Source: Solirubrobacteraceae bacterium (GTDB taxonomy: Bacteria > Actinomycetota > Thermoleophilia > Solirubrobacterales > Solirubrobacteraceae). From it: a stretch of 55,051 nucleotides of DNA. Position numbers and translations under genes: made by a program. Below the pieces are notes generated by a model. The model worked only from the letters and a program-made list of their open reading frames with translations, did no database searches and was not told the DNA's origin. The stretch spans positions 1-55,051 of the forward strand of contig JADGPO010000114.1 in assembly GCA_017882405.1 (NCBI GenBank). Reading direction: 5' to 3'. Positions 17,731-39,403 of this stretch are shown here, piece after piece. Position 1 is the first letter of the stretch. Every line of letters starts with the position of its first letter.

Positions 17731-18101
17731 TCTCCAACCCCCAGGTAGGACCAGTCCTTGTTCAGGCGCGCCGCCAGCGGCGGCGAGAAGCCGATCTCCT
17801 GCCAGGCCCCCGGGCCGTCGGCCCCCGGCGCGACGAAGTCCGAGTAGAAGGCCTCGCAGGCCAGCGCACGCACCAGCTGGAAGGCGGGGGAGAGCGCGTG
17901 CTCGGCCAGGGCGTCGCGCCCGTGCTCGGACGGTGCGGCCAGCTCGTCGAAGGCGCCCAGCGCGTCGTCGCGGGTCGCGTCGGGCATCCGGGCCAGCAGC
18001 GCGTCGACGTACACCTCGGCGCCGACGCGGGCGCAGCCGGGGACGATCAGCTCGCACACCGTGCGGACCGAGGCCGCCCGGGTCTCGTCGAGGACGTGCA
18101 T
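17727..18101 (-). CDS. Gluconate 2-dehydrogenase subunit 3-like small subunit
   Basis: The 124-aa acidic helical protein begins HVLDETRAASVRTVCELIVP, the usual opening of gluconate 2-dehydrogenase subunit 3 family proteins (the small partner of flavin dehydrogenases). No Tat signal is visible, unlike many family members, so the complex may be cytosolic. The stop overlaps the large-subunit start by four bases. Its own ATG at 18101 shares one base with the stop of the preceding GMC gene. Its function is inferred from family and context. Confidence 0.7.
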   Translation of the reverse strand: MHVLDETRAASVRTVCELIVPGCARVGAEVYVDALLARMPDATRDDALGAFDELAAPSEHGRDALAEHALSPAFQLVRALACEAFYSDFVAPGADGPGAWQEIGFSPPLAARLNKDWSYLGVGE

Positions 18102-21924: not shown

Positions 21925-22036
21925 GCGGATCGCCTCCGCTCGGCCGCGAGCCTGCCGCCCGCTCGGCATCCAGCCTCGCCTGACCGGGCGTCGCTCGCGT
22001 CATCCAGCTGCCTCGCCTGTATGTCGGCGGCGTGAG

Positions 22037-23847: not shown

Positions 23848-23849
23848 CC

Positions 23850-24776: not shown

Positions 24777-24818
24777 GTCCGTTCAGCGTCCCGATCGCAT
24801 GGTTGCTCGGCCCGGCGG

Positions 24819-26159
24819 CTAGTTCGGCGTGATCCCCGCCGCCTTGGCCGCCGCGTGATACTGCGCGATCTGCGGGTCAGACGACGGAATCGCCGTGCAG
24901 CCCCGCGCGGTAACCATCTTGCCGCCCGAGGGGGTCGTTGTGTAGTCGGCGTTGTTGGGGATGTGCAGCGACACCTTGCCGTACGTCCACGGCTGGCAGA
25001 GCATCTCGGTCTTGTAGCTCTTGATCCCGACGATCGCGGCGTTGACGCTCTTGGTCGTGTACGGACCCTTGACCTTCTCCAGCGCCTGGGTCAGGAACTT
25101 GCCCAGGACGAAGCCCATCTGGCTGAACGAGCCGATACCGCCGGCCACGCTCTTGCCGTACTTGGCGAGGATCGCCTTGTACAGCTGCATCTCCGGGCCG
25201 TTGTGGTCGTCGGGCGCGGTCAGCTCGGCATTGACGAACAGCTTGTGGTCCCACTTCGGTCCCAGCGCCTTGGCCAGGAAGTCGGTGTTGCACGGCGTTG
25301 AGCAGCCCCACGACTTCACCTTATCCTCGACTCCGAGCTTCTGGGCGGCCTGCAGGATCAGCAGCGCCTCGGGCGGCGTGAAGTTCAGCACCACCGATCC
25401 GGTTGGGCCGGCCGCGTTGACGAGGTTGATCGCCACCGAGCTGGCGTCGGTGATTGGCACGTTCTCGGTCATCGTGGTGATCGGGACGCCCGCCGCCTTG
25501 GCGACGGCCGTCGGACCGCCGGCGATGTAGCCGGTGCCCGGGACGTTGGACTGCACGAACACGATCTTCTTGGCGTGCTGCTGGCTCAGGGCGTACTCCA
25601 CGGCGCCGTCGGAGCTGTAACGCGGCCCCATGTTGACGGCGGCGCTGTTCGGCGTCGACCAGCACTCCGGAGCGATCCCGGCGTCCATCTCGTAGATCCC
25701 CAGCTGCTTCCAGTAGGCCTGGTCGATCGTGCACTCCAGCAGGTCGAAGACGCCGTCGATGGCGACGACGTGGTCGCTCTGGATCAGCTTCTTGGCCGCT
25801 GCTGCGATCTGCGACGGCTGCGTCTGGTCCAGCTGCACGAACAGCTTGAGCGGGTGGCCGTTGACGCCACCGTTGTCGTTGACGCAGCTGAAGTAGGCCT
25901 GAATCATGTTCGGGCCGTCGGTGAAGTCGGTCCCCGGCTGGTGGGTGTCGATCGTGCCGATGTTGATCGGCGTGCCCGTGGCCTTGACCCCGGGCTTCGT
26001 TCCGCACTTGGAGGTGTCGACCGACCCGCTGCTGCTCCCTCCGCCGCTGCTGCTCGATGCCGAGGTCGTAGCGCCTCCGCTGCTCGACTTGCTGCTGCTA
26101 CCGCAGCCTGCCAGCGCCACGAGCGCGAGCGCCGCAATGAATAGAAGGGCGAATCGCAT
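24819..26159 (-). CDS. Liv-type ABC transporter substrate-binding lipoprotein
   Basis: The 446-aa protein starts with a lipoprotein signal (hydrophobic core FALLFIAALALVALAGC, lipobox LAGC with Cys19), then a Ser/Gly-rich linker and a type I periplasmic binding fold beginning INIGTIDTHQPGTDF. Five or more further cysteines (for example CTIDQ, PECWS, CSTPCN, LCQPW) suggest disulfides in the exported domain. It captures the operon's substrate outside the cell. I chose ATG 26159; GTG 26186 is in frame, has a stronger GGAGAGGAG site and would extend the n-region by nine residues. It is the first gene of a ten-gene operon under a promoter that overlaps a GntR-type operator. Confidence 0.87.
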   Translation of the reverse strand: MRFALLFIAALALVALAGCGSSSKSSSGGATTSASSSSGGGSSSGSVDTSKCGTKPGVKATGTPINIGTIDTHQPGTDFTDGPNMIQAYFSCVNDNGGVNGHPLKLFVQLDQTQPSQIAAAAKKLIQSDHVVAIDGVFDLLECTIDQAYWKQLGIYEMDAGIAPECWSTPNSAAVNMGPRYSSDGAVEYALSQQHAKKIVFVQSNVPGTGYIAGGPTAVAKAAGVPITTMTENVPITDASSVAINLVNAAGPTGSVVLNFTPPEALLILQAAQKLGVEDKVKSWGCSTPCNTDFLAKALGPKWDHKLFVNAELTAPDDHNGPEMQLYKAILAKYGKSVAGGIGSFSQMGFVLGKFLTQALEKVKGPYTTKSVNAAIVGIKSYKTEMLCQPWTYGKVSLHIPNNADYTTTPSGGKMVTARGCTAIPSSDPQIAQYHAAAKAAGITPN

Positions 26160-26247
26160 CCGCGCCCTCGCGTGGTAATTGCTCACCGACCGTCTCCTCT
26201 CCGAAGCTGTGCCGATCCGGCCCCGAGATCCGCTCGAAGCCGGGGGC

Positions 26248-26276
26248 ATACTAGTTGGGCGCTCAGCTGCATGCAA
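26248..26276 (-). promoter_or_regulatory. Promoter of the importer/oxidase operon, -35 inside operator arm 1
   Basis: On the - strand TTGCAT (26276-26271) and TAGTAT (26253-26248) are separated by exactly 17 bases, a good sigma-70-type promoter. The -35 is part of GCTGCATGCAA (26266-26276), one arm of an 11-bp perfect inverted repeat whose other arm is at 26330-26340. Each arm is itself nearly palindromic (TGCATGCA), the kind of site bound by GntR/FCD dimers. Confidence 0.65.
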
Positions 26277-26424: not shown

Positions 26425-27186
26425 GTGGCCAGGCCAGCGCACCCCACCCACATCACCAAGGCGGTCCTGCGCCTGCGTGAACTGATCTTCAACGGTGAGT
26501 TCTCGCCGGGCGAGCGGATGTCCGAGTTGCCGCTGGTGGAGGTGCTGGGGGTCTCGCGCACGCCGCTGCGCCTGGCCCTGGCCGAGCTGGAGCACGAGGG
26601 GCTGCTCAGGGGCCTGCCCGGCGGGGGCTACGTGGTGCGCGAGTTCACCCAGGGCGACGTCCGCGACGCGATCGAGCTGCGCGGCGTGCTGGAGGGGACG
26701 GCCGCGCGCTTCGCCGCCGAGCGCGGTGCCACGGCGCGTGACCTCAACGCCCTGCGCGCGACCAACGAGACGATCCGCAAGCTCGTGCTGCGGGGCGACT
26801 ATGAGTCCTTCGAGCGGTACGTCCAGCTCAACGAGAGCTTTCACGCCCGGCTGATGAAGATGGCGCACAGCCCGCTGCTCGAGCGGGCGGTCGAGGGCAT
26901 CGTCTCGCTGCCGTTCGCCCGCGCGAGCGCGTTCGTGCTGGCCGACTCGGAGCTGTCGATCTCCCGCGACCTGGTGATCGTGGGCCACCTCCACCACACC
27001 AACCTGATCGAGGCGATCGAGCGCCGTCAGGGCGCTCGGGCCGAGGCGCTGGCCCGCGAGCACGCGCGGCTGGCGCTCACCCACCTGGAGATCGTCGTCG
27101 ACAATCACCGAGACGAGCTCAACCGCGTGCCCGGGGGGTCGCTGATCGCGCTTGCAGACTCCGAGCCCGAACCCGAACCCGCCTGA
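26425..27186 (+). CDS. GntR family transcriptional regulator, FCD subfamily
   Basis: The 253-aa protein has an N-terminal winged helix-turn-helix (residues 12-75, with LVEVLGVSRTPLRLALAELE as the recognition region and GYVVREF as the wing) and a C-terminal all-helical FCD domain. Metal or ligand contacts are suggested by NESFHARLMKMAHSP and the later His residues in VGHLHHTN. FCD regulators respond to small carboxylates or CoA-derived catabolites. It starts at GTG 26425, is divergent from the ten-gene importer/oxidase operon, and is convergent with the E1 operon, ending 14 bases from it. Its likely sites are the TGCATGCA repeats upstream. Confidence 0.9.
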   Translation: MARPAHPTHITKAVLRLRELIFNGEFSPGERMSELPLVEVLGVSRTPLRLALAELEHEGLLRGLPGGGYVVREFTQGDVRDAIELRGVLEGTAARFAAERGATARDLNALRATNETIRKLVLRGDYESFERYVQLNESFHARLMKMAHSPLLERAVEGIVSLPFARASAFVLADSELSISRDLVIVGHLHHTNLIEAIERRQGARAEALAREHARLALTHLEIVVDNHRDELNRVPGGSLIALADSEPEPEPA

Positions 27187-27200: not shown

Positions 27201-28229
27201 TCATGACCCCGGCCGCTCGCTGATGGCCACGGGCTCGACGACGTCGGCCCACTGCACGGCCAGCTTCGCCGCTGAGTACACGTCGTCGGCATCGGGCCGG
27301 TAGGCGTCCTCCAGCGCCGGGCTGAGCGGCACCGGCGTGAACGGCGCGCCGACGCGCTGGATCGGTGCCTCCAGGTAGTCGAAGGCGGCGTCCTGCAGCT
27401 CGGCGGCCAGCTCGGCGCCGAACCCGCCCGCGCGAACCGCCTCGTGGGCCACGACGGCGCGTCCGGTGCGCCGCAGCGAGTCGGCGATCGGCTCCAGGTC
27501 GAGCGGCACGAGCGTGCGCGGGTCCATGACCTCGGCCTCGATGCCCTCCGTGGACAGCCGGTCGGCGGCCTCCAGCGCATCGCCCACCAGCCGGCCGAGG
27601 GCGACGATTGTCACGTCAGAGCCGCGGCGCAGGATGTGCGCACGCCCGATCGGGATCGACTCGCGGTCGTCGGGATCCTCGGGCGCCTCCTCGCGACGGA
27701 AGTACAGCGACTTGTTCTCGACGAACACGACCGGGTTGGGGTCGGCGATCGCGGAGGCCAACAGCCCGGCCGCGTCGGCGGCGCTTGAGGGCATCACGAC
27801 CTTGAGTCCGGGCACGTGCGTCAGCCACGCCTCCAGGCTCTGGGAGTGCTGGGCGGCGGCGCGCCCGCCCGAGCCGCCCTGCGTGCGCAGCACGAGGGGC
27901 ACCGACAGCTGACCGCCGGACATGAAGTGCGCCTTGGCGGCCTGGTTGACGAGCTGGTCCAGGGCGAGGGTGACGAAGTCGATGAACATGATCTCCACCA
28001 CCGGGCGCCAGCCCGCCTGAGCGGCCCCGATCGCCACGCCGCACACCGCGCCCTCGCTGATCGGCGTGTTGAGCACCCGATCGCGCCCGAACTCCTCCGA
28101 CAGCCCCAGCGTGGCCTGGTAGGGACCCCCCTCGGCGACGTCCTCGCCGAGCACGATCACTCGCTCGTCGGCGCGCATCGCCCGCGCCAGCGCCCCGTTG
28201 ATCTCCTTGACGAACGTGGTCTGCGCCAT
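27201..28229 (-). CDS. 2-oxoacid dehydrogenase E1 beta subunit-like (second pair)
   Basis: The 342-aa protein matches the beta subunit of pyruvate/acetoin-type dehydrogenase E1. VIVLGEDVAEGGPYQATLGL and TPISEGAVCGVAIGAAQAG hold the ThDP-activating Glu region; the C-terminal domain contains EVMDPRTLVPLDLEPI. It forms an alpha2beta2 enzyme with the product of the gene five bases upstream. It is the last gene of an operon with two E1 pairs and no lipoyl E2 or E3. Compared with the first pair the active-site region is conserved but sequence is clearly diverged, so substrates may differ. Confidence 0.87.
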   Translation of the reverse strand: MAQTTFVKEINGALARAMRADERVIVLGEDVAEGGPYQATLGLSEEFGRDRVLNTPISEGAVCGVAIGAAQAGWRPVVEIMFIDFVTLALDQLVNQAAKAHFMSGGQLSVPLVLRTQGGSGGRAAAQHSQSLEAWLTHVPGLKVVMPSSAADAAGLLASAIADPNPVVFVENKSLYFRREEAPEDPDDRESIPIGRAHILRRGSDVTIVALGRLVGDALEAADRLSTEGIEAEVMDPRTLVPLDLEPIADSLRRTGRAVVAHEAVRAGGFGAELAAELQDAAFDYLEAPIQRVGAPFTPVPLSPALEDAYRPDADDVYSAAKLAVQWADVVEPVAISERPGS

Positions 28230-28234
28230 CGCCG

Positions 28235-29233
28235 TCAGGCCTCGGTGGCCGCGTAGACCAGCTCGGCAGCCTCGCGCTCGGAGAGCGGCGGGCTGTCACG
28301 GCCGAAGGCCACGGCGTCCTCCACCTCGGCACAGGCATCGTCGGCGATCGCCTTGGCGTCGTCGCGGCGCAGCCAGCGCCGTTTGACCGCTAGGCGCTCG
28401 AGGCCGACGATCGGGTCGAGCTTGGCCCACTCGGAGTCGGCCAGAGCCTCGCGATAGGCCTGTGGGTCGCCCTCGTAGTGGCCGCGGAAGCGGTGCGTGC
28501 TGCACTCCATGAGCAGCGGCCCCTGACCGTCGCGAGCCCGTTGCACGAATTCTCCGGCGGTGCTGTACAGCGCTCCCACGTCCGAGCCGTCCACGATCCG
28601 GCGCTCGAACCCGTAGGGCGCCACCACGTCGCACACCGACTCCACCCGGGTGTGGGCCGAGCGCGGCGTGAACTCGGCCATCCCGTTGTTCTCGCAGACA
28701 AAGACGAGCGGCAGCTCCCACAGGGCGGCCAGGTTGACGGTCTCGTGGAAGTGGCCGGCCTGAACGGCGCCGTCGCCGAAGAACACCACGGTCACGCGGT
28801 CAGAGCCGCTGAGCTTGGTGCTCAGCGCGTCGCCGGCCGCCATCGGCAGGTTGCCGCCCACCACGCCGGTGGCCCCCATCAGCCCGTGCGCGGTGTCGAC
28901 CAGGTGCATCGAGCCGCCCAGCCCGCGGCACAGCCCGTCGGCGCGGCCCATCAGCTCGGCCATCGTCTCCTTCATGGGGGCGCCCTTGGCCAGCGCGTGG
29001 CCATGCGCACGGTGGCCGCTGTAGACGGCGTCGTCGTCGCCCAGGTGGGCGCACACGCCGGCCGCCACGCCCTCGGAGCCGATGCTGAGGTGGATCAGCC
29101 CGTGGACCTGCAACGTGCGGTAGAGCTGGGCGACGCGCTCCTCGAAGCAGCGGATGCGCCACATCGTCTCAAGCAGTGCCCGTGCCGCACTCTTGTCGAG
29201 CGCGGCTGCGGGCGCGCGGGAACCGCGGGCCAT
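28235..29233 (-). CDS. 2-oxoacid dehydrogenase E1 alpha subunit-like (second pair)
   Basis: The 332-aa ThDP-binding alpha subunit has the cofactor motif running from FFGDGAVQAGHFHETVNLAA to CENNGM. The N-terminal RIRCFEERVAQLY and GSMHLVDTAHGLMGATGVVG are typical of E1 alpha of pyruvate/acetoin complexes. The loop that is phosphorylated in mitochondrial enzymes is not conserved. It lies ten bases after the first-pair beta gene and five bases before its own beta partner. The N-terminus (MARGSRAPAAALDKS) is short, so no extra domain is present. Confidence 0.87.
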   Translation of the reverse strand: MARGSRAPAAALDKSAARALLETMWRIRCFEERVAQLYRTLQVHGLIHLSIGSEGVAAGVCAHLGDDDAVYSGHRAHGHALAKGAPMKETMAELMGRADGLCRGLGGSMHLVDTAHGLMGATGVVGGNLPMAAGDALSTKLSGSDRVTVVFFGDGAVQAGHFHETVNLAALWELPLVFVCENNGMAEFTPRSAHTRVESVCDVVAPYGFERRIVDGSDVGALYSTAGEFVQRARDGQGPLLMECSTHRFRGHYEGDPQAYREALADSEWAKLDPIVGLERLAVKRRWLRRDDAKAIADDACAEVEDAVAFGRDSPPLSEREAAELVYAATEA

Positions 29234-29243
29234 GGGGGTGCGG

Positions 29244-30224
29244 CTAAACCGTGACCGGCGCGGTGCCCAGGACCTCGCGGACGGCTCCGGCGATCTTGTT
29301 CTCGTCGGGCAGCACGTAGGCCTCCATCGGCTCGCTGTAGGGGACGGTGGCGTCCAGCGCGGTCACCTGCTTGATCGGCGCCTTGAGCGACGAGAAGCCA
29401 TGCTCGGCGATCTCGCCGGCGATGATGTTCGAGGAGGCGGCGTGACGCGGGGCCTGGTCGACGAGTACAGCATGCCCGGTCTTCTCCACCGAGGTGAGGA
29501 TCGCCGGGATGTCGAGCGGCTGCAATGTTCGCGGGTCGACGACCTCGGCGTCGATGCCCTCGCCCGCCAACTGCTCGGCCGCCTGCAACGCCTTGCCGAC
29601 CGTCCAGCCCGTGGCCACGATGGTGACATCGGCGCCCGGCCGGCGGATCGCCGCCTCGCCCAGGGGCACGAGGTACTCGCCCTCGGGCACGTCGCCGTGC
29701 TCCAGCACGAGCAGGTAGTGGATGAGGTAGAGGACGGGGTTGTCGTCGCGGATGGCCGAGGCGAACAGGCCCTTGGCGTCGGCGGCCGTCGACGGGAGCA
29801 CGATCTTCAGCCCCGGGATGCCACAGAACATGTTGTAGATGGAGCCGGTGTGCTGCCCGGCCCACCCGGCGGTGAACCCGTATCCGGCCTTGAGCACCAG
29901 TGGGACCTTGACGCGCCCACCGCTCATGTAGCGCAGGCGCGGGGCCTCGTTGACGACCTGGTTCATCGCGACCAGCATGAACTCGGCCATGAGCAGCTCC
30001 ACGACCGGCCGATAGCCGGCCAGCGCCGCGCCCACGGCCATGCCGATCTCGGCCGTCTCGGAGATCGGGCTCACCCGGACCCGGTCTGACCCGAAGGCCT
30101 GACGCCACTTGTCGTCCTCCGAGGGGGCGACGTCCTGGCCGTAGAAGAGGACGGTCTCGTCCCGTGCCATCTCCAGGTGGAGCGCCTCCTCGACCGCCGC
30201 GATATAGGGGATCTCACGTGCCAT
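29244..30224 (-). CDS. 2-oxoacid dehydrogenase E1 beta subunit-like (first pair)
   Basis: The 326-aa E1 beta has FYGQDVAPSEDDKWRQAFG, then SPISETAEIGMAVGAALAG around the catalytic Glu, and EVVDPRTLQPLDIPAI in the C-terminal domain. The second-position acid in GQDV replaces the usual GEDV. A Shine-Dalgarno GAGG lies before ATG 30224. It is ten bases downstream of its alpha partner and ten bases upstream of the second alpha gene. It should act with the 30.2-31.3 kb product in ThDP-dependent decarboxylation or C-C cleavage. Confidence 0.87.
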   Translation of the reverse strand: MAREIPYIAAVEEALHLEMARDETVLFYGQDVAPSEDDKWRQAFGSDRVRVSPISETAEIGMAVGAALAGYRPVVELLMAEFMLVAMNQVVNEAPRLRYMSGGRVKVPLVLKAGYGFTAGWAGQHTGSIYNMFCGIPGLKIVLPSTAADAKGLFASAIRDDNPVLYLIHYLLVLEHGDVPEGEYLVPLGEAAIRRPGADVTIVATGWTVGKALQAAEQLAGEGIDAEVVDPRTLQPLDIPAILTSVEKTGHAVLVDQAPRHAASSNIIAGEIAEHGFSSLKAPIKQVTALDATVPYSEPMEAYVLPDENKIAGAVREVLGTAPVTV

Positions 30225-30234
30225 TTCGGCCTCC

Positions 30235-31278
30235 TCAGGCGTAGACGTATTTGGTGGCCGCTTCCGGCTCCGGGAACGGGCTGTCGAGCCCGAACTGGAC
30301 GGCCGCCTCCATCTCGTCGCGGGCCTCCCGGGCGATCTGATCGGCGTCCTGCGTACTCAGCGTGCCCTGCTCGACGAGGCGCGCACGGAAGCGCGGCACG
30401 GGGTCGCCCCGCTTGGCGGCCTCGTACTCCCCGCGGTTGCCGAACACCGTGATCGCCTCGTGCTCGGGGTAATGGAGCGGCACGCCGGGCGGCGCGATGA
30501 GGTTGCCGTGAGCCGACAGGCGGTAGACCTTGGACTCGACCAGGGTGGGACCCTCGCCGCCCCGCGCCCGGGCCACCGCTGCGCCGACCGTCTCGTACAC
30601 GGCGACGGGGTCGCCGCCGTCGACGGTGACGCCGGGCATGCTGTAGGCCGTGGCCTTGATCGACAACGGCTCGCCGGCGGCCGCGTTGGCGTCCTCCTGG
30701 TCCGAACGCGTGGCCACGTTGTAGTTGTTGTTCTCCATCACGTAGACGATCGGCAGCTTCCACAGCGAGGCGAGGTTGAGCGACTCGTGAAAGGCGCCCT
30801 GCTTGGAGGCGCCGTCGCCGAAGAAGCACAGGACGACCTGGCCCTGCTTTCGGATCTGTGCGGCGAGGGCCACGCCCGTGGCCTGGGGGATGCCCTGGCC
30901 GACGATCCCCGAGGTGCCCATGAAGCCCCGCTCGGGATCGACGAGGTGCATCGAACCGCCGTAACCGCCGCACAGCCCGTCGGCGCGGCCATAGATCTCG
31001 GCCATGATCGCCTTGGTGTCGGTGCCCAGGGCGATCGGATAGCCGTGGCAGCGATAGGTGGCCATCAGCTGGTCGGAGTCCTCAAGGGTGGCCAGCGAGC
31101 CGACGATCGAGGCCTCGGCGCCGTCGGCGAGATGGGTGTGCCCGCGGATCACGCCGGGGTGCTCCTCGAACGTCCGCTTGACGCGCTCCTCGAACTCCCG
31201 GATGCGCATCATCTGGCGCAGGATCCAGGTCAGGCGCTCGCTGTCGAGCTCCGGCATCGTCGTCTGGGTGCTGGTCAA
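30235..31278 (-). CDS. 2-oxoacid dehydrogenase E1 alpha subunit-like (first pair)
   Basis: The 347-aa alpha subunit has the ThDP motif from FFGDGASKQGAFHESLNLAS to MENNNYN and the entry region RGHTHLADGAEASIVGSLAT. TTG 31278 is chosen because GGAG lies seven bases upstream; the first in-frame ATG (31257) has no ribosome-binding site and would remove seven residues. The longer ORF upstream overlaps the isomerase gene without homology. It is closest to acetoin/pyruvate-type E1 alpha. With no E2 in the operon it may work with a distant E2 or without one. Confidence 0.87.
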   Translation of the reverse strand: MTSTQTTMPELDSERLTWILRQMMRIREFEERVKRTFEEHPGVIRGHTHLADGAEASIVGSLATLEDSDQLMATYRCHGYPIALGTDTKAIMAEIYGRADGLCGGYGGSMHLVDPERGFMGTSGIVGQGIPQATGVALAAQIRKQGQVVLCFFGDGASKQGAFHESLNLASLWKLPIVYVMENNNYNVATRSDQEDANAAAGEPLSIKATAYSMPGVTVDGGDPVAVYETVGAAVARARGGEGPTLVESKVYRLSAHGNLIAPPGVPLHYPEHEAITVFGNRGEYEAAKRGDPVPRFRARLVEQGTLSTQDADQIAREARDEMEAAVQFGLDSPFPEPEAATKYVYA

Positions 31279-31292: not shown

Positions 31293-32162
31293 CTATGCGG
31301 CCGCGGGCGCGAACTGCGCGGCGGTCGTCTCGTAGGCTCGCTCGAACTCCTGCTCGATCGGCAGGGCGCGCAGCGCCGCGGAGAGCACCTCCACGCCCCA
31401 CGGGCCCTCGTAGCCGGCTTGGAGGCAGGCCTGGACGTAGCCGGGGATGTCGAACTCTCCTTCGCCGGGAAGGTGGCGATGGTTGACGACCTCGTCGATC
31501 GCGTCCTCCATGTCCTCGAAGCGGCCGTCCGAGAGCTCCACCCAGGACAGGTACTCCTGCGGGATCCGGCTCATTCCCTGCGGCGGGATCCCCAGCTTGC
31601 TCATGTGCCAGGTGTCGATCGCGAGGCCCCCGTTGGGGCGTGCGGCGCCCTGCACCAGCTCCAGCGCGGTGTCCAACGTGTGGACGTTGACGTCGAAGGG
31701 CATGAACTCGTAGACGATCTGCGCGTCGGTGTGGTTGGCCGCGTCATCGCACAGCGCGGCGAACTCCTCGGCCAGGCGCTCGAGCTCGCAGGGCGTGCCC
31801 GGGATGTTGCCGACCTTGATGTGGTGCGCGCCGAAGGCGGCCGCCGTGTCGAACAGCAGCCGGCGGCGCTGGTCTGACTCCGAGCGCTGAGGGGTGCCGC
31901 GCTCGGCGAAGAAGTCGGCCAGGAACTCGACCTCCAGGTGGCGAAGGCCGGCGTCGTCGAAGATCTGCTTCATCTCCGCCAGCGTTCGTGTCTGCAGCTG
32001 GTGCTCGGTGTCGGCGTGCCACAGGCCGATCCCCTTGAAGCCGACCCGCGCGGCGTGGGCGCAGCGATCGCGCCAGTCGAAGGTGCTCCACTCACGGCCG
32101 AAGTGCACTTCGACCGGTCCCGCGCTGGTCCAATAGAGGTCCAGCAGCTCAAGCTCGCCCAT
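31293..32162 (-). CDS. Sugar phosphate isomerase/epimerase family TIM-barrel protein
   Basis: The 289-aa protein belongs to the xylose isomerase-like/AP endonuclease 2 fold family. Metal ligands are visible as Glu in VYEFMPFD, Asp and His in AIDTWHMS, His in HRHLPGEGEFD and Glu in WGVEVLS. Members isomerise or cleave sugars, inositols or hydroxypyruvate, and some act on aromatic ring-cleavage acids, so the reaction is open. ATG 32162 has GAAGGAG upstream. It is the first gene of the E1 operon, 14 bases before the first alpha gene, with the dyad at 32284-32324 upstream of it. Confidence 0.78.
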   Translation of the reverse strand: MGELELLDLYWTSAGPVEVHFGREWSTFDWRDRCAHAARVGFKGIGLWHADTEHQLQTRTLAEMKQIFDDAGLRHLEVEFLADFFAERGTPQRSESDQRRRLLFDTAAAFGAHHIKVGNIPGTPCELERLAEEFAALCDDAANHTDAQIVYEFMPFDVNVHTLDTALELVQGAARPNGGLAIDTWHMSKLGIPPQGMSRIPQEYLSWVELSDGRFEDMEDAIDEVVNHRHLPGEGEFDIPGYVQACLQAGYEGPWGVEVLSAALRALPIEQEFERAYETTAAQFAPAAA

Positions 32163-32431: not shown

Positions 32432-34258
32432 GTGACGCCCGACCACGATCTGTCGTTCCCCAACCCGTACTCGGTCGCCACGCCCGAGGGGTGCGAGGGC
32501 TGGGAGGAGATGTACCCCTACTACGCGCTGTTCGACGAGCGACGGCGCGAGACCGACGAGAACCGCTTCTGGTTCTGGAACTCGATGCACTTCCCTATCC
32601 CGATGCCGGCGTTCGACGTGATCTGCATCGACTCCCCGTATCAGGCGGTGGGGGCGTGGCAGAACCGGGTGTTCGCCGTCCCGCCGGCGATGGGGATCGA
32701 CTACCGGGCGGTCAACGGCTACATCTACATCTCCGGCAACCCCGTCACCGATCCCGACAAGATCGCCGAGCGGGCGGGCTTCTTCGAGAAGCGCGCCGCC
32801 TACTACTACGAGAACTGGTCCGAGCTCTACGAGAAGTGGCGCACCAAGATGGAGGCGCTGATCGCCGAGCTGGGAGAGCTGCAGGTTCCCGAGCTGCCCG
32901 AGTACGAGCCCGACGAGGTGGCCTTCGGCGAGGACCGCAACACGGCGGTCTACGAGGTGCTGGACGCCTACGGACGCTGCCTGCGGCTGGGCGATCTGAT
33001 GTGGCAGCACCACTTCGAGTTCCTGCTGCTGGGGTACGGCGCCTACTCCACGTTCGCAGACCTGTGCAAGTCAGAGCTTCCCGACATCCCCGATCAGCAC
33101 ATCGCGCAGATGGTGGCCGGCATCGACGTCCTGTTGTTCCGCCCCGACGCCGAGCTGCGCCGCCTGGCCGCGCTGGCGATCGAGACAGAGGTCGACGGCG
33201 CGTTCGTGGAGGGCCGCACACCCGCCGAGATCGATGCCGAGCTCGCCGAGTCGGAGGCGGGGCGGTCCTGGTTGGAGGAGCTGGAGCGCGTCAAGGACCC
33301 GTGGTTCAACATGGCCACCGGCGACGGCCTGACCCACTACTACCGCAGTTGGCTCGACGATCCGAGCATCCCGTACGCGTCGTTGATCGGCCACGTGGCG
33401 GCGCAGCGCAACGGTCAGCCGGCGGAGCCGCCCACGGAGGAGATCGCGCGCGAGCGCGACCGCCTGGCCGAGGGCTATGCGGCGTTGCTGCCCGACGAAA
33501 CGCGCGGTGCCTGGAACGATCTGCTGGCGCTCTCGCGGACGGTGTTCCCCTACGTGGAGGAGCACAAGTTCTACTGCGACTACTGGTTTCTCACGCGCTG
33601 GTGGAACAAGATCCGCGAGTTCGGGGGGCTGCTGGCCCGCCACCGCTTCCTGGACGACGGCGACGACATCTTCCACCTCTCACGCCACGAGGTCGCCTCG
33701 GCGCTGGACGAGCTGGTGCTGACCTGGGCCACCGGCGGCCAGGCGCTGGGACCGATGCACTGGCCGCCGATCGCCGCTCGGCGCAAGGAGCTGCTGGAGC
33801 GCCTGGGCCGCTGGACCCCGCCGCCGGCGCTGGGAGTCGCGCCCGAGGCGGTCAACGACCCGATGACGATCATGCTGTGGGGGGTCACCACCGAGCGGGT
33901 GCGGGAGTGGGCTCGTCAGCAGGAGGGCGGCTCCGAGCTCAAGGGCGCCGCCGCCTCGCCCGGCGTGGTGGAGGGGCCCGCGCGGGTCGTGCGGTCGGTT
34001 ACCGAGCTGGCCGACGTGCGCGACGGCGAGATCCTGGTGTGCGGCGCGACCTCGCCCGCCTGGGCGCCGATCTTCAACAAGATCAAGGCCACGGTCACCG
34101 ACGTCGGTGGCGTGATGTCGCACGCGGCGATCGTGTGCCGCGAGTACGGCCTGCCCGCCGTGGTCGGCACGGGGCGGGCGACGTCGGAGATCCGCACCGG
34201 ACAGGCGATCCGCGTTGACGGCTCCACCGGGGTGGTCACGCTGCTGCAGGACGAGTGA
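32432..34258 (+). CDS. Phenylphosphate synthase alpha-like phosphotransferase subunit (acetovanillone kinase-type, PEP-utilising mobile domain)
   Basis: The 608-aa protein resembles the large subunit of phenylphosphate synthase. The long N-terminal substrate part (GWEEMYPYYALFDERRRE, then WFWNSMHFPIPMPAFD) is followed by a PEP-utiliser mobile domain carrying phospho-accepting His564 in TDVGGVMSHAAIVCREYG. It should pass phosphate from its ATP-binding partner to a phenolic hydroxyl. In Rhodococcus HpeHI, a kinase of this type phosphorylates acetovanillone and 4-hydroxyacetophenone. The biotin carboxylase genes that follow, instead of UbiD-type carboxylase genes, point to that pathway rather than phenol carboxylation. 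GTG 32432 is used; the stop shares a base with the next ATG. Confidence 0.83.
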   Translation: MTPDHDLSFPNPYSVATPEGCEGWEEMYPYYALFDERRRETDENRFWFWNSMHFPIPMPAFDVICIDSPYQAVGAWQNRVFAVPPAMGIDYRAVNGYIYISGNPVTDPDKIAERAGFFEKRAAYYYENWSELYEKWRTKMEALIAELGELQVPELPEYEPDEVAFGEDRNTAVYEVLDAYGRCLRLGDLMWQHHFEFLLLGYGAYSTFADLCKSELPDIPDQHIAQMVAGIDVLLFRPDAELRRLAALAIETEVDGAFVEGRTPAEIDAELAESEAGRSWLEELERVKDPWFNMATGDGLTHYYRSWLDDPSIPYASLIGHVAAQRNGQPAEPPTEEIARERDRLAEGYAALLPDETRGAWNDLLALSRTVFPYVEEHKFYCDYWFLTRWWNKIREFGGLLARHRFLDDGDDIFHLSRHEVASALDELVLTWATGGQALGPMHWPPIAARRKELLERLGRWTPPPALGVAPEAVNDPMTIMLWGVTTERVREWARQQEGGSELKGAAASPGVVEGPARVVRSVTELADVRDGEILVCGATSPAWAPIFNKIKATVTDVGGVMSHAAIVCREYGLPAVVGTGRATSEIRTGQAIRVDGSTGVVTLLQDE

Positions 34259-35304
34259 TGGGCGCCGGCCACCTCCGTGCGCTCGGCGATCTGCGCGCCG
34301 CCGACGGCGGTGCCTTCGGCGGCAAGAGCGCCGGCCTGGGCGAGCTGCTCGGAGCCGGCATTCCGGTCCCGCCGGGGTTCGCGCTGCCGGCCGCGGCGTT
34401 CACGGAGTTCGTCGCCGGTGCCGGGCTGGAGGACGTGATCGCGGAGCTCCTGGCCGGCGCAGGCGAGGACGTCGACGGCCTGTACGCCGCCGCACAGCGA
34501 ATCGGGGAGGTGATCGGCGCCGCCGAGATGCCTCCCGCGCTCGCCTCCGAGGTGACGGCGCGCTACACGGAGCTCGCCGGCGGCGACTCGCCCGTGGCGG
34601 TGCGCTCCAGCGCGCTGGGCGAGGACAGTGCCGAGGCGACCTTCGCCGGTCAGCAGGAGACGATCCTGTGGGTGCGTGGCGCCGACGGGGTGGTCGATGC
34701 CGTCCAGGCCTGCTGGGCCAGTCTCTACAGCGCCGAGGCGATCAGCTACCGCCGCCGGCTCGGAGGCGACTCCGGCGCGCCCGCCCCGGCGATGGGGGTC
34801 ACCGTGCAGCAGATGGTCGACGCCGCCGTGTCCGGCGTGATGTTCACCTGCAATCCGGTGAGCGGCGACCGCAGCATGGTGGCGATCAACGCGGGCTGGG
34901 GGCTGGGCCTGGCCGTCGTCGGCGGTGAGGTCACCCCGGATGACCACCTGGTCTCCAAGATCACCGGCGAGGTGGTGCGCGAGACGATCGCCGACAAGCA
35001 GGTCCAATACGTGCCGGCGCCCGGTGGCCACGGCACGGAGCGCGTCGCGGTCGACGACGAGTGGCGGCGAAAGCGCTGCCTGGACGAGCCGGCCCTGGCC
35101 GCTCTGGTCGAGCTCGCGCGTCGTGTGGAGGGCCACTTCGGCTCATCCCAGGACGTCGAGTGGGCCGTCGACGCGGACGGGGAGCTGTTCGTGCTGCAGT
35201 CGCGGCCGGTCACCGGGCTTCACGAGCGCCCCGCCGCACCCCGGCCGTCCTCTGCGATGGCGTTGGTGATGGGCACGTTCGGCGCCGACCGGCAGAAGGG
35301 CTGA
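34258..35304 (+). CDS. Phenylphosphate synthase beta-like ATP-binding subunit (PEP synthase N-terminal domain)
   Basis: The 348-aa protein equals the ATP-grasp nucleotide-binding part of PEP synthase/pyruvate phosphate dikinase. FGGKSAGLGELLGAGIPVPP, SPVAVRSSALGEDSAEATFA, VSGVMFTCNPVSGD and LFVLQSRPVTG are the expected blocks. ATP is split into AMP, phosphate and a phosphoryl group that is carried to the His of the partner encoded upstream. The kinase is therefore divided over two genes, as in phenylphosphate synthase and the Hpe/Acv acetovanillone kinases. ATG 34258 overlaps the previous stop, and its own TGA overlaps the BCCP start. Confidence 0.83.
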   Translation: MGAGHLRALGDLRAADGGAFGGKSAGLGELLGAGIPVPPGFALPAAAFTEFVAGAGLEDVIAELLAGAGEDVDGLYAAAQRIGEVIGAAEMPPALASEVTARYTELAGGDSPVAVRSSALGEDSAEATFAGQQETILWVRGADGVVDAVQACWASLYSAEAISYRRRLGGDSGAPAPAMGVTVQQMVDAAVSGVMFTCNPVSGDRSMVAINAGWGLGLAVVGGEVTPDDHLVSKITGEVVRETIADKQVQYVPAPGGHGTERVAVDDEWRRKRCLDEPALAALVELARRVEGHFGSSQDVEWAVDADGELFVLQSRPVTGLHERPAAPRPSSAMALVMGTFGADRQKG

Positions 35305-35771
35305 TGGGCCTCACCAATGACGACGTCCGGGAGATTTTGCGGATCGTCGACGAATCCGATGTCGACGAGCTGCGGATCGAGACCGACGGATTCTCGCTCC
35401 ATGTGCTGCGAAGGGCGGCGGGCGGCGGTGTCAGCGCCGAGCCTCTTGAACAGCCTCGAGGAGCCCCGGCGCCGACACCCCCGCTCGCCGCGCCTGAGCC
35501 CGACCTCGCTCGACAGCCATCCGACCCCGGGACCGTCGTGGTCCCGTCGCCGATGCTGGGGACCTTCTACCGCGCGGAGGCGCCCGGGTCGGCGCCGTTC
35601 GTGGAGGTGGGATCGACGGTGGATCCCGACAGCACGGTGTGCATCATCGAGGTGATGAAGATGATGAACTCGGTTGCCGCCGGGATCTCCGGGACGGTCG
35701 TCGAGGTATGCGCGGACAACGGCGAGCTGGTCGAGTACGGCGAGCCGCTGATCCGGGTCCGCTCGGCGTGA
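35304..35771 (+). CDS. accB: Biotin carboxyl carrier protein of an acyl/ketone carboxylase
   Basis: The 155-aa protein has a short N-terminal helical part (VREILRIVDESDVDELRIE, as in AccB), a Pro/Ala linker (50-75) and a biotinyl domain. Lys119 in CIIEVMKMMNSV is the biotinylation site. It has the overall form of the acetyl-CoA carboxylase carrier, but the operon gives it a biotin carboxylase and a pyruvate/oxaloacetate-type carboxyltransferase instead of AccA/AccD. In the Hpe pathway the three-part enzyme HpeCBA has this make-up. It overlaps both neighbours (TGATG before, GTGA after). Confidence 0.9.
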   Translation: MGLTNDDVREILRIVDESDVDELRIETDGFSLHVLRRAAGGGVSAEPLEQPRGAPAPTPPLAAPEPDLARQPSDPGTVVVPSPMLGTFYRAEAPGSAPFVEVGSTVDPDSTVCIIEVMKMMNSVAAGISGTVVEVCADNGELVEYGEPLIRVRSA

Positions 35772-37099
35772 GGCGCGTGATGATCCCCAACCGCGGCGAG
35801 GTCGCCGTGCGGATCGTGTACGCCTGCCGGGAGCTTGACCTGGAGTGCGTGGTCGGGGCCTCGGAGGCCGATCTCGACGGGATGGCCGCCCGGCTGGCCG
35901 ACCGGGCGGTGTGCCTGGGCCCGGCCCCCGCTCGCGACAGCTACCTGCGCCCCGAGGTCGTCGTGCAGGCCGCCGTCGGCACGGGCTGCGATGCGATCCA
36001 CCCCGGCTACGGCTTCCTCTCCGAGAGCCCGCGACTGGCGGCGCTGGCGCGCGAGGCCGGGCTGACCTTCGTGGGCCCGTCGGTGGAGACGATCGAGCTG
36101 GCCGGCGACAAGCTGGCGGCCCGGGCGGCGGCGCGGCGCGCCGGTGTTCCGGTTCTGCCGGGGGGCGAGGCGCCATCGCCGGAGCGCGCCCGCGAGCTGG
36201 CCGCCGAGATCGGCTACCCGCTGCTGGTCAAGGCGGCCGGCGGCGGGGGAGGGCGAGGGATCAAGCGCGTCGACGACGCGGCCCAGTTGGACGAGCTGCT
36301 GTCACTGGCGCGCCGCGAGGCGGGGTCGGCGTTCGCCGACGACCGCGTCTACCTGGAGCGCCTGGTGAGCCCGGCTCGCCACGTCGAGGTGCAGATCGCG
36401 GGCGACGAGCACGGCGCCCTTGTCCACCTCGGCGAGCGCGACTGCTCGGTGCAGCGTCGCTATCAGAAGGTGGTGGAGGAGGCGCCCGCGCCCGCGCTGG
36501 CGCCGGAGACGCGGGCGACGTTGCTGGACTCCGCCATCGCGCTCGCCGGGGAGCTCGGATATCGCAACCTGGGGACCGTGGAGTTCGTCGTCGATCCCGA
36601 CACGGGAGAGCCGTTCTTCCTCGAGGTCAACTGCCGGATCCAGGTCGAGCATCCGGTCACCGAGGCCGTCTGCGGCCGGGACCTGGTGGTCATGCAATTA
36701 CGGATCGCCGATCGGCGGCCGCTGGGCTTCTCCCAGGACGAGGTCCGCTTCTCCGGGCACGCGGTCGAGTGCCGCCTGAACGCCGAGGACCCCACGCGCG
36801 GCTTCGCCCCGTCGCCGGGGATCCTGGAGATCTTCGCGTTGCCCGAGCGGCACGGGCTGCGGGTCGACACGCACTGTGGCGCCGGAGCGGCCGTGCCTCC
36901 CTATTACGACTCGCTGCTGGCCAAGCTGATCGCCCACGGCGAGGATCGAGGCCGGGCGATCGACATCCTGATCGACGCGCTGGAGGATACCGATGTGGAG
37001 GGCGTGGAGACCAACCGCACGCTGCTCATCAGCGTGCTCGGCCACCCGGACTTCCAGGCGGTCCGCGTGACCACCGATTGGCTGGAGCGGACGCTCTAG
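35768..37099 (+). CDS. accC: Biotin carboxylase subunit
   Basis: The 443-aa ATP-grasp enzyme carboxylates biotin on the carrier with bicarbonate and ATP. VMIPNRGEVAVRIVYACREL opens the protein, and IHPGYGFLSESP, KAAGGGGGRGIKRV and EVNCRIQVEHPVTEAV are canonical. The start is GTG 35768 in GTGA, overlapping the BCCP stop by four bases. The frame is open further upstream but overlaps the BCCP gene. IPNRGE instead of IANRGE is a small family variation. It works with the genes on either side. Confidence 0.93.
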   Translation: MRRVMIPNRGEVAVRIVYACRELDLECVVGASEADLDGMAARLADRAVCLGPAPARDSYLRPEVVVQAAVGTGCDAIHPGYGFLSESPRLAALAREAGLTFVGPSVETIELAGDKLAARAAARRAGVPVLPGGEAPSPERARELAAEIGYPLLVKAAGGGGGRGIKRVDDAAQLDELLSLARREAGSAFADDRVYLERLVSPARHVEVQIAGDEHGALVHLGERDCSVQRRYQKVVEEAPAPALAPETRATLLDSAIALAGELGYRNLGTVEFVVDPDTGEPFFLEVNCRIQVEHPVTEAVCGRDLVVMQLRIADRRPLGFSQDEVRFSGHAVECRLNAEDPTRGFAPSPGILEIFALPERHGLRVDTHCGAGAAVPPYYDSLLAKLIAHGEDRGRAIDILIDALEDTDVEGVETNRTLLISVLGHPDFQAVRVTTDWLERTL

Positions 37100-37110
37100 C
37101 TAGTGGCCCG

Positions 37111-38604
37111 ATGAGCCGAGAGATCCAGTTCATCGACACCACCACGCGCGACGGCAACCAGAGCCTGTGGGGCGCCACCGGCCTGACCACCCCGGATGTG
37201 CTGGCGATCGCGCCCGTGCTGGACGAGGTCGGCTACCACGCCCTGGACTTCACCTCCAGCACCCACATGGCGGTCTCGGTGCGCTTCCACCAGGAGGACC
37301 CGTGGGAGCGGATCCGCCGTGTCAGCGCGGCGATGCCCGATACGCCGCTGGGAATGATCACGCCCGGGATGCGGTTCATCTCCTGGGTGCCCGCCGGAGC
37401 GGACGTGATGCGCCTCGCCTTCCGGCTGGTCGCTCGCAACGGGATTCGCCGGCTGAAGATCGCCGATCCCTCCAACGATCCGGCTCGGATCCGGCGGCTG
37501 GCCGCCATGGCCCGGCAGGAGGGGATCGAGGAGATCGTCATCGGGCTGACCTACTCGATCAGCGCCGTTCACACCCACGCCTATTACGCCGAGCGGGCGG
37601 CCGCGCTCGCCGACTGCGCCGACATGGACCGGATGTACCTCAAGGACCCGGGCGGGCTGCTCACCCCCGATGCGGTGCGCGAGCTGGCGCCGCCCCTGCT
37701 GGCCGCCGCCGGCGAGCGGCCGCTGGAGCTGCACAGCCACTGCACGATCGGACTGGCGCCACTGGTCTACGTGGAGGGGGTGCAGGCCGGCTTCGGGGTG
37801 GTCCACACCGCCTCGGGTCCGCTGGCGCGCGGCACCTCGCAGCCGGAGGTGGTCTCCACGGCGCACAACCTGGAGGCCTCCGGCTACGCGCACGGGCTGG
37901 ACCTGGAGCGCCAGGCGGTCGTCTCGGAGCACTTTGACGAGATCGCCCGGGCCAAGGGCCTGCCGGCGGGCGCCCCGCGGGAGTTCGACGCGGCCTACTA
38001 CTGCCACCAGCTGCCGGGCGGGATGGTGACCACCACCCGGCGGATGCTCCAGGAGCTCCGTCGCCCCGAGCTGTTCGATGCCGTGCTGAAGGAGGTCACG
38101 CGGGTGCGGGCCGAGATGGGATATCCGATCATCGTCACGCCCGTGTCGCAGTTCATCGCCAGCCAGGCGGCGCACAACGTGATCGACGGCGAGCGGTGGC
38201 GAAGCGTCTCGGACGAGACGGTGCGCTACTTCCTCGGCCATTACGGCGAACCGCCGGCTCCCGTCGACCAGCAGATCGCCGACCGCGTGCTCGCCCGGCC
38301 GCAGGCCGCCAAGCTCGGTGAGCTTCAGCCGCTCACCCTGGAGGGCGCGCGCGAGCGCTTCGGCCGGCGGATCTCCGAGGAGGAGCTGCTGCTGCGCCTG
38401 ACGATGCCGGCCGAGCAGGTGGACGCGATGATCGCCGCCCGCGACGAGCAGGACGGGAGTGGCTGGGCGGGCGGGACCGTTTCCGCCGCCCGGCCCGGCC
38501 GCTCGCCGCTGGTCACGCTGCTGTCAGAGCTGCAGCGGCGCGAGTCGGTCACCAGCGCGGAGGTCGTCTCGGGCGAGGACCGCGTGGTGTGGCGCCGTGG
38601 TTGA
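37111..38604 (+). CDS. Biotin-dependent carboxyltransferase (transcarboxylase 5S/pyruvate carboxylase-like), probable aryl-ketone carboxylase subunit
   Basis: The 497-aa protein has a DRE-TIM metallolyase barrel: FIDTTTRDGNQSLWG at residues 7-21, the lysine motif RMYLKDPGGLLTPD, and metal-binding ELHSHCTIGLAP. Then comes the conserved carboxyltransferase tail with the YPIIVTPVSQFIASQA block. Relatives move CO2 from biotin to pyruvate. Here the kinase genes upstream and the phosphatase downstream suggest the acceptor is the methyl group of a 4-phospho-acetophenone, as shown for HpeCBA. ATG 37111 lies 11 bases after the biotin carboxylase stop. No biotin domain is fused to its end. Confidence 0.87.
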   Translation: MSREIQFIDTTTRDGNQSLWGATGLTTPDVLAIAPVLDEVGYHALDFTSSTHMAVSVRFHQEDPWERIRRVSAAMPDTPLGMITPGMRFISWVPAGADVMRLAFRLVARNGIRRLKIADPSNDPARIRRLAAMARQEGIEEIVIGLTYSISAVHTHAYYAERAAALADCADMDRMYLKDPGGLLTPDAVRELAPPLLAAAGERPLELHSHCTIGLAPLVYVEGVQAGFGVVHTASGPLARGTSQPEVVSTAHNLEASGYAHGLDLERQAVVSEHFDEIARAKGLPAGAPREFDAAYYCHQLPGGMVTTTRRMLQELRRPELFDAVLKEVTRVRAEMGYPIIVTPVSQFIASQAAHNVIDGERWRSVSDETVRYFLGHYGEPPAPVDQQIADRVLARPQAAKLGELQPLTLEGARERFGRRISEEELLLRLTMPAEQVDAMIAARDEQDGSGWAGGTVSAARPGRSPLVTLLSELQRRESVTSAEVVSGEDRVVWRRG

Positions 38605-39403
38605 CCTGGGCGACGTGCGCGGGTTCGTGTTCGACATCGACGGGACGCTCCTGCACCGCGGGCCTGACGGCCGCGGCCGCCCCCAGCCGGGGGCGGTGGA
38701 GGTGCTGGCGCGCATCCGCGCCGCCGGCAAGCGGGTGGCGCTGTTCACCAACGGCAGCCACGTGCCCTCGGCGCGGATCGCCGAGGGGCTGCGCGAGAAC
38801 GGCCTGCCGGTCTCAGATGACGAGCTGATCACCCCGGTCGACAGCGCGACCACCTACCTGCTCGCCCACCACCGCGACGATCCGACGCTGCTGTTCGCCT
38901 CCGAGGCCGTCCGCGAGCACATGGCCGCCCGGGGGGTGCGCCTGGCCGCCGGAGAGGACGCGAAGACCATCTTCGTGGCTCATCGCCAGCAGGTCGACAT
39001 GGACGACCTGGACCGCGCGGCGCGTGCGGTCGTCGCCGGGTCCCCGCTGTACACCGGCAGCTACGTGCGCGGCTACGCCGGCGCCCACGGCATGATCTTC
39101 AGCCGCAACTCGATGATCGCCGCCGCGATCGCCAAGGTCACCGGTGCCCGCCCGCGGGTGCTGGGCAAGCCCTCGCGCCCCGCCGTTGCCGAGCTGCGCC
39201 ACCGCCTCGGAATCCCCACCGCCGAGCTGGCGGTGATCGGGGACGACCTCGGCATGGACGTGGCCCTCGGCCGCATGGGCGGATCGCGCACCGTCCTGGT
39301 GCGCAGCGGGATCAGCGGCCAGATCGACCTGACGCAGGTAGCCGCTCGCCGCCGGCCCGACGCCGCGGTGGACGGCGTCGCCGACCTGCTCGACTGGATC
39401 TGA
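38597..39403 (+). CDS. HAD superfamily (class IIA, NagD-like) phosphatase, probable aroylacetate-phosphate phosphatase
   Basis: The 268-aa protein has HAD motif 1 FVFDIDGTLLHRG, motif 2 VALFTNGS, motif 3 Lys in LGKPSRP and motif 4 VIGDDLGMDVALG, with a class II cap between motifs 2 and 3. This is the NagD/4-nitrophenylphosphatase type. GTG 38597 overlaps the carboxyltransferase stop by eight bases, binding it to this operon. In the Hpe pathway the phosphatase HpeD removes the phenolic phosphate after carboxylation; this gene is the natural candidate for that step. It ends eight bases from the convergent molybdenum hydroxylase gene. Confidence 0.83.
   Translation: MVDLGDVRGFVFDIDGTLLHRGPDGRGRPQPGAVEVLARIRAAGKRVALFTNGSHVPSARIAEGLRENGLPVSDDELITPVDSATTYLLAHHRDDPTLLFASEAVREHMAARGVRLAAGEDAKTIFVAHRQQVDMDDLDRAARAVVAGSPLYTGSYVRGYAGAHGMIFSRNSMIAAAIAKVTGARPRVLGKPSRPAVAELRHRLGIPTAELAVIGDDLGMDVALGRMGGSRTVLVRSGISGQIDLTQVAARRRPDAAVDGVADLLDWI

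Follow-up and report, generated by a model that had tools for sequence, protein, structure and literature searches.

The whole 55,051-nucleotide stretch analysed here (hereafter "the window"; Solirubrobacteraceae bacterium, assembly GCA_017882405.1, contig JADGPO010000114.1) carries at positions 32432-39403 of the forward strand a six-gene operon whose assignment, by enzyme family, to the phospho-ketone carboxylation modules known as Hpe in Rhodococcus and Acv in Sphingobium is supported by its domains, motifs and trees. It is very probable that the encoded proteins phosphorylate, carboxylate and dephosphorylate a 4-hydroxyaryl methyl ketone and thereby feed 4-hydroxybenzoate. Gene content, gene order, motifs, family membership and conservation of the surrounding island were computed directly, and from these we infer every reaction and the main substrate.

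Architecture and motifs of the operon

A first-pass annotation, made from the sequence alone, had assigned six genes to this segment, and their open reading frames, domain families and motifs bear out that content:

32432..34258, + strand: HpeH-like dikinase subunit (H), substrate-binding and swivel domains, 608 amino acids (aa), GTG start, putative phospho-His564 (NF006153, tree, motif)
34258..35304, + strand: HpeI-like ATP-grasp subunit (I), ATG start, in-frame GTG at 34255 (PF01326; best PDB match 9GOJ)
35304..35771, + strand: biotin carboxyl carrier protein (BCCP), Lys119 in EVMKM (TIGR00531, 132 bits against a cut-off of 115.2)
35780..37099, + strand: biotin carboxylase (BC), ATG start, GTG possible at 35768 (PF00289, PF02786, PF02785; motifs EVNCRIQVEHPVTE and GGGGRGI)
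37111..38604, + strand: carboxyltransferase (CT) of the 5S type, predicted phospho-aryl-ketone type (PF02436, motifs, tree)
38597..39403, + strand: HAD-IIA phosphatase, HpeD-like (TIGR01460, 102.3 bits against a cut-off of 100.15; HAD motifs)

All six frames are open and their catalytic motifs intact. As originally noted, the genes are tightly packed, with overlaps of 1 or 8 bases and gaps of 8 and 11 bases; the 8-base gap before BC becomes a 4-base overlap if BC starts at the GTG at 35768. Orthologues of all six genes, 51-85% identical and in the same order, occur in five relatives (L039, L127, L132, L135, L137), and the operon is therefore not a chance arrangement. An inverted repeat, TGGGTGAAA...TTTCACCCA, at 32285-32323 in the divergent promoter region was considered as a possible operator and discarded as evidence for lack of conservation: it was not found upstream in 7 relatives, and a single half-site (L169) was seen among 12 loci.

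The two residues highlighted by the first-pass annotation, His564 of H and Lys119 of BCCP, are indeed located in the motifs TDVGGVMSH and EVMKM, respectively. The former, with Met two positions before His, fits the dikinase swivel motif T/SxxGGxxxH described in PMC12167813, which also names structure 9GOJ as HpeI; 9GOJ is the best match of I among solved structures (2.1e-73). H scores 880 bits with NCBIfam model NF006153 (PRK08296 subfamily; cut-off 578). The top six structural matches of a model predicted for H (mean pLDDT 86) are rifampin phosphotransferases (RPH), with a TM-score of 0.61 (normalised by query length) and 18% identity for 5fbt; the same paper likewise reports RPH likeness for HpeH. 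We rejected the identification of H as an RPH or a phosphoenolpyruvate (PEP) synthase: only the fold class is shared, and the models of RPH and PEP synthase (PRK06464) match H only in the swivel domain, with scores (118 and 108 bits) far below their cut-offs (999 and 598 bits).

CT retains the metal and carbamate motifs RDGNQS, LKDPGG and LHSHC, and has ITPGMR where pyruvate-type enzymes have LLRGQN. All 12 aligned members of the CT family read x[T/G][T/P]G[M/L]R at this position, with Arg replaced by Pro or Thr, against LLRGQN with Arg in 3/3 aligned pyruvate/oxaloacetate-type chains. This Arg is presumably the pyruvate-binding residue of pyruvate-type carboxyltransferases. Database names such as "oxaloacetate decarboxylase alpha subunit" for relatives of CT and "pyruvate,water dikinase" for relatives of H would fit a central-metabolism operon, in which a pyruvate carboxylase or oxaloacetate decarboxylase accompanies a PEP-synthase-like enzyme. 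The replaced Arg and the low PEP synthase score of H argue against this, and CT stays under the cut-offs of all listed pyruvate carboxylase and oxaloacetate decarboxylase models, the best score being 307.9 bits against 402 (PRK09282); in particular, we rejected CT as pyruvate carboxylase B or OadA (307.9 against 402 and 277.2 against 756.5 bits). By score, motif and tree (see below) CT thus appears to lie outside the pyruvate/oxaloacetate group, as the first-pass annotation expected, and we consider central metabolism the most improbable of the explanations weighed here.

Family placement of the kinase and the carboxyltransferase

In the midpoint-rooted kinase tree (59 rows), H of the window shares a 48-row clade (support 97/94) with HpeH of Rhodococcus and with further kinases, many of them adjoining this carboxylase; inside it, H falls in a 22-row group of Solirubrobacterales (100/100). 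By family score (see above) it is neither an RPH nor a PEP synthase, the outcomes that the first-pass annotation had named as contrary to its reading. Nine CreH-type rows and Azoarcus PpsA fall outside the 48-row clade. The CT tree unites 76 of its 84 rows in a single clade (100/100) that excludes eight other carboxyltransferases of the order; it took 84 of 110 rows, those omitted being mostly from genomes fetched a second time, together with some sphingomonads.

These trees bear on a second alternative, namely that H and I form a phenylphosphate synthase or a CreHI enzyme acting on phenol or 4-cresol, with the carboxylase as an unrelated neighbour. H does share about 47% identity with Azoarcus PpsA and 40% with the CreH-type kinase of R. 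ruber, yet CreH-type and PpsA rows lie apart from it in the tree (the L130 kinase and the CT-linked CreH rows, discussed below, excepted), and we therefore discarded the CreHI 4-cresol module; a P450 domain was not found among the scanned window proteins, a subset of the ORFs. Phenylphosphate synthase/carboxylase was discarded as well, since Azoarcus PpsC and PpcA (the alpha subunit of phenylphosphate carboxylase) had no match in the window. Moreover, H at 64% identity or more occurs in 16 of 232 genomes of the order Solirubrobacterales, i.e. in 15 of the 18 that carry a CT of the window group ("CT-positive") and 1 of the 214 others, counts that, like all co-occurrence counts and Fisher tests of this work, ignore the relatedness of genomes and the incompleteness of metagenome-assembled genomes (MAGs), the Fisher values not being true probabilities. 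A phenol or cresol kinase beside an unrelated carboxylase is accordingly very unlikely.

Distribution in Solirubrobacterales and beyond

Relatives of CT are present in at least 575 of the 591 stretches scanned (GTDB species genomes). Among the 80 CT loci kept, 25 have H upstream on the same strand and 32 have a Tm-1-like kinase instead, as judged by eye and with many short contigs. The 18 CT-positive genomes of the order were retained from 26 with a CT match, the other eight (G040, G041, G044, G045, G048, G160, G162, G176) having been dropped at 36-39% identity; one of the 18 (G129) is represented by a 158-residue piece. Among the 120 matches listed, the window's own included, CT is at least 77% and H at least 82% identical. 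The named near relatives of CT (P0012 at 92%, P0041, P0046, P0048) belong to Solirubrobacteraceae MAGs, in agreement with the earlier impression of a deep-branching actinobacterium. CT-type loci were found also in Streptomyces, Geodermatophilus, Modestobacter, Arthrobacter and Sphaerisporangium.

These results do not agree with the first-pass view of the pathway genes as rare, nor is their presence in an actinobacterium other than Rhodococcus new: besides the loci listed above, an hpe-type operon of Actinomadura macra and complete syntenous hpe clusters in four further genomes are already described in PMC9618137. PMC13101465 gives the kinase and carboxylase as clustered in 52 of 836 cases; that count and ours come from different genome collections and are not directly comparable. 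Solirubrobacterales are clearly a stronghold of the Hpe-type operon. With more than 100 close database relatives of CT, the Hpe-type route appears as a recurrent trait of the order, and hydroxyacetophenone turnover is probably commoner than the few growth-tested strains imply. The window operon also offers distant enzyme variants for lignin bioconversion.

Several loci depart from the six-gene arrangement. Two (L128, L131) contain H-CT-HAD sets without adjacent I, BCCP and BC, and have the CT variant RDGDQS; two others (L129, L140) contain H-I-CT-HAD sets without adjacent BCCP and BC. Subunits may be shared in trans, as G001 and G124 also have fuller operons. In seven CT loci (L014, L015, L018, L034, L035, L040, L044) the sole visible H is of the CreH type and lies several kb off or downstream; in these loci the ketone route may be served by CreH-type kinases. 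Pseudomonas putida YC-AE1 (L006), Sphingobium yanoikuyae YC-JY1 (L008) and S. bisphenolivorans YL23 (L066) combine this carboxylase and phosphatase with a kinase of the Tm-1-like type; we take these strains to be degraders of bisphenol A, a compound whose degradation presumably yields 4-hydroxyacetophenone.

The island around the operon

The operon is part of an extended, conserved island of genes for aromatic degradation, as the first-pass annotation had proposed. The following features of the window belong to it or lie beside the operon:

6245..7636, + strand: DpgC homologue, predicted cofactor-free arylacetyl-CoA dioxygenase (phmmer 7.4e-91 to DpgC 2np9)
7614..7977, + strand: PaaK-like phenylacetate-CoA ligase, reduced to a remnant (tblastn pieces of a 438-aa protein, the first weak, E 0.065)
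9624..10649, - strand: AraC-family regulator (near the operon, AACS or DpgC in L127, L132, L142, L168-L170)
10681..12654, - strand: acetoacetate-CoA-ligase-like protein (AACS), candidate HpeE (TIGR01217, 742 bits against 520.9; 42% to JS3073 HpeE)
14307..15965, + strand: benzoylformate-decarboxylase-like thiamine diphosphate (ThDP) enzyme (NF005485, 497.4 bits, cut-off 493)
16210..20711, - strand: two GMC oxidoreductases with a small protein between, Zn alcohol dehydrogenase (Zn-ADH) (syntenic in L178)
21142..26249, - strand: branched-chain-type ABC uptake system, two ATPases, two permeases and a binding protein (syntenic in L166, L167, L178)
26425..27186, + strand: GntR/FCD regulator (syntenic in L166, L167, L178)
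27201..31278, - strand: two E1 beta/alpha pairs of the 2-oxoacid/acetoin dehydrogenase type (both pairs in L127)
31293..32162, - strand: xylose-isomerase-like TIM-barrel protein, divergent from the operon (PF01261; syntenic in L127, L132, L141)

The best illustration of this conservation is contig C449 of genome G002, on which an HpeF homologue, a benzoylformate decarboxylase, one gene, two GMC oxidoreductases, Zn-ADH, one gene and the ABC system are followed by GntR, two E1 beta/alpha pairs, the TIM barrel, one gene, H-I-BCCP-BC-CT-HAD, AACS, AraC, PaaK and DpgC. Region 6245-39403 of the window has nearly the same gene set; here AACS and AraC precede H by about 20 kb, and PaaK is in pieces. 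The AACS gene, non-adjacent in the window, lies directly 3' of HAD in L127 and L136; the TIM-barrel gene and an E1 pair adjoin H in L132 and L141, where the fetched parts contain a single pair; and L166 and L167 have the ABC/GntR/AraC/DpgC/PaaK/GMC/TIM/E1 part without an adjacent operon. A lipoyl E2 was not found among the scanned window proteins. Gene labels in relatives are best BLAST matches, and genes were called there with a simple GC-frame script that missed some (TIM in L127, DpgC in L165).

Two further genes of the window lie downstream of the operon: a lone molybdenum-hydroxylase large subunit convergent to it (39412-41682, - strand), whose orthologue is found beside AACS in L132 and L168, and a second benzoylformate-decarboxylase-like ThDP enzyme (46838-48541, + strand; 666 bits, cut-off 493).

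Proposed pathway and likely substrate

According to our model, the HpeI-like protein would take a phosphoryl group from ATP, and His564 on the swivel domain of the HpeH-like protein would transfer it to the phenolic hydroxyl of a 4-hydroxyaryl methyl ketone. Once phosphorylated, the ketone would be carboxylated at its methyl carbon by the BCCP/BC/CT enzyme, and dephosphorylation by the HAD enzyme would leave a 4-hydroxybenzoylacetate-type acid. The AACS-like protein (10681-12654) would convert this acid into its CoA ester, to be cleaved by an HpeF-type hydrolase, not seen in the window but found in the G002 island, into 4-hydroxybenzoate, destined for the PobA/Pca route, and acetyl-CoA. The six genes that the first-pass annotation equated with the pathway are present as a module, and the pathway itself would need partners encoded outside 32432-39403.

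Such partners are widespread among the 15 operon-bearing relatives: AACS, the HpeE homologue, occurs in all 15 (E <= 1e-150), an HpeF homologue in 14, PcaH above its cut-off in 14, and a PobA-like protein of at least 490 bits in 13, of which 2 only exceed the curated cut-off. Across the order, 16 of the 18 CT-positive genomes have an HpeF homologue, against 18 of the 214 CT-negative ones. In G002 the HpeF homologue lies, with a benzoylformate decarboxylase, within the operon's island; one contig (L179) combines HpeF, PobA-like and PcaH genes with a benzoylformate decarboxylase, and another (L180) HpeF with AACS, AraC and PaaK. HpeF, PobA-like and PcaH genes together point to 4-hydroxybenzoate as the product, which makes 4-hydroxyacetophenone the likeliest main substrate. 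Of the two ketones named by the first-pass annotation, 4-hydroxyacetophenone is favoured in this way by the gene content of the relatives, and acetovanillone becomes the less likely, because VanA is present in just 2 of the 15.

The same chemistry could instead serve another 4-hydroxyaryl ketone, such as a hydroxypropiophenone or a lignin side-chain ketone, supplied by the GMC oxidases and E1 pairs. The GMC oxidases, Zn-ADH, two E1 pairs and TIM-barrel protein are conserved near the operon, the 16 kb around the Rhodococcus operon L001 showed no homologue of the E1 pairs or the TIM barrel, and the second H-CT-HAD sets with altered CT motifs (L128, L131) suggest that substrate ranges may differ. 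The signature stretches of the window CT are, however, those of the Rhodococcus and sphingomonad enzymes, and we regard a different ketone as possible but, on balance, rather improbable.

A number of observations weigh against an Hpe/Acv-type module acting on 4-hydroxyacetophenone. The window proteins are just 35-55% identical to those of Rhodococcus, and H is about equally far from JS3073 HpeH (48%), Azoarcus PpsA (46%) and a Thermomicrobium kinase (49%), so that the substrate is unreadable from the kinase sequence. Kinase clade and role also match imperfectly. In L130, a full six-gene operon in G082, the kinase is placed not in the 48-row clade but next to PpsA, with long branches (83/22). 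Eight of the nine CreH-type rows come from CT-bearing loci (L014, L015, L016, L018, L034, L035, L040, L044), and seven of these eight loci (all but L016) show no other H. The HpeF homologue has no tblastn match (E <= 1e-4) in the 55-kb window, and its co-occurrence with CT is not specific to the ketone route, because HpeF also fits coumarate breakdown: it is given as 95% identical to CouO of that pathway in PMC9618137. Finally, the scarcity of VanA may be due to incomplete MAGs or to another demethylase.

A possible second arm

The island includes a gene pair that appears to go beyond the known systems. The match of the DpgC homologue to DpgC of glycopeptide antibiotic biosynthesis spans residues 31-440, with the positions aligned to E189, H222, R254 and Q299 kept; we take these four residues to be catalytic, and the numbering offset is likewise our assumption. 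With 399.6 bits for NF042432, below the DpgC equivalog cut-off of 530, the protein is a homologue and not DpgC proper. Unlike DpgC, it is encoded among catabolic-type genes, and in relatives it has a PaaK-like partner. The 229-aa ORF on the opposite strand (7177-7866, - strand) was rejected as a conserved gene, since its matches came from the strand that encodes the DpgC homologue. The PaaK-like gene, longer in relatives, has been shortened in the window either by deletion or by misassembly.

The DpgC homologue is present in 19 of the 232 genomes of the order, 11 of these within the 18 CT-positive ones. It lies within about 5 kb of CT at seven loci in six genomes (G001, G002 twice, G118, G119, G124, G129), and in G003 near an operon-like HAD at a contig end (L169). 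The PaaK-like ligase adjoins it in all loci read except L171 and L174, where the contig ends. PaaK-DpgC pairs occur also in four genomes without a CT match (L172, L173, L175, L177).

The combination of PaaK, DpgC and benzoylformate decarboxylases suggests an arylacetate arm that would meet the ketone arm at 4-hydroxybenzoate. The PaaK-type ligase would form an arylacetyl-CoA, which the DpgC-like dioxygenase would convert with O2 to an arylglyoxylate; a benzoylformate-decarboxylase-like enzyme would then yield the aldehyde and a dehydrogenase the benzoate. We put forward only tentatively, as a rather doubtful proposal, that the island channels its substrates to 4-hydroxybenzoate through two arms, one based on phospho-ketone carboxylation and the other on PaaK and DpgC. 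A PaaK/DpgC arylacetate route was not found among the matches listed in searches of the open-access literature; this arm would be the new part of the island, the phospho-ketone route itself being of a known kind. If true, the PaaK-DpgC pair would place a cofactor-free oxygenase of the antibiotic biosynthesis type in aromatic catabolism.

In a bolder form of this proposal, the DpgC-like enzyme of some genomes would oxidatively cleave the aroylacetyl-CoA of the Hpe arm and so replace HpeF. The window, which keeps the DpgC homologue, has PaaK as a remnant and shows no HpeF in its 55 kb, fits this idea. The idea is weakened because, of the 11 genomes that combine CT with the DpgC homologue, 10 have HpeF as well (all but G003; in G002 in the same island), and because PaaK-DpgC pairs occur in genomes lacking CT.

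Comparison with known systems

The closest counterpart is the Hpe system of Rhodococcus rhodochrous GD02 (hpeHICBADEF), which combines a two-component kinase, a three-component biotin carboxylase and a HAD phosphatase as in the window, and whose enzyme reactions were measured according to PMC9618137 and PMC12167813. GD02 was compared through HpeI (9GOJ) only; for the other comparisons the plasmid of Rhodococcus sp. JS3073 (L001) stands in for GD02 hpe, its HpeI differing from crystallised HpeI at about nine positions (by eye) in an alignment of all 366 residues. The JS3073 order is H, I, BCCP, BC, CT, HAD, an acetoacetyl-CoA-synthetase-like gene and an amidohydrolase. The window operon reproduces the first six, H-I-BCCP-BC-CT-HAD, at identities of 48% for H, 41% for I, 55% for BCCP (84 residues), 48% for BC, 48% for CT and 35% for HAD, and thus has the gene content of the Hpe/Acv pathway that the first-pass annotation recognised. 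It differs from Rhodococcus Hpe in that the HpeE homologue is 20 kb off, the HpeF homologue is not in the window, and the operon is flanked by AraC and GntR regulators, E1 pairs, GMC oxidases and a DpgC-like protein. Table 1 of PMC9618137 lists HpeB as the carboxyltransferase (49.3 kDa) and HpeA as the biotin carboxylase (57.4 kDa); these labels may be swapped, since BC (463 aa, 49.5 kDa) and CT (527 aa, 57.5 kDa) of JS3073 fit the reverse.

The Acv system of Sphingobium lignivorans SYK-6 (acvABCDEF), as described in PMC13101465, has six genes without E and F, like the window, E and F being part of the operon in the eight-gene form only; most of the sphingomonad loci examined carry a Tm-1-like single-component kinase, unlike the H/I pair of the window. 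The operons of GD02, SYK-6 and A. macra were, according to PMC13101465, introduced into Rhodococcus RHA1 carrying hpeEF. Xcc of Aromatoleum aromaticum EbN1 resembles the window operon, by the description in PMC9618137, in having a homologous carboxylase and clustered HpeHI-like kinase genes, but belongs to an anaerobic ethylphenol route. CreHI and phenylphosphate synthase PpsAB are homologous two-component dikinases, to which H of the window is 40% (CreH-type, R. ruber) and 46-47% (Azoarcus PpsA) identical; they differ in their partner genes, a P450 (L004) and the Ppc carboxylase (L003), respectively, and in their separate tree positions.

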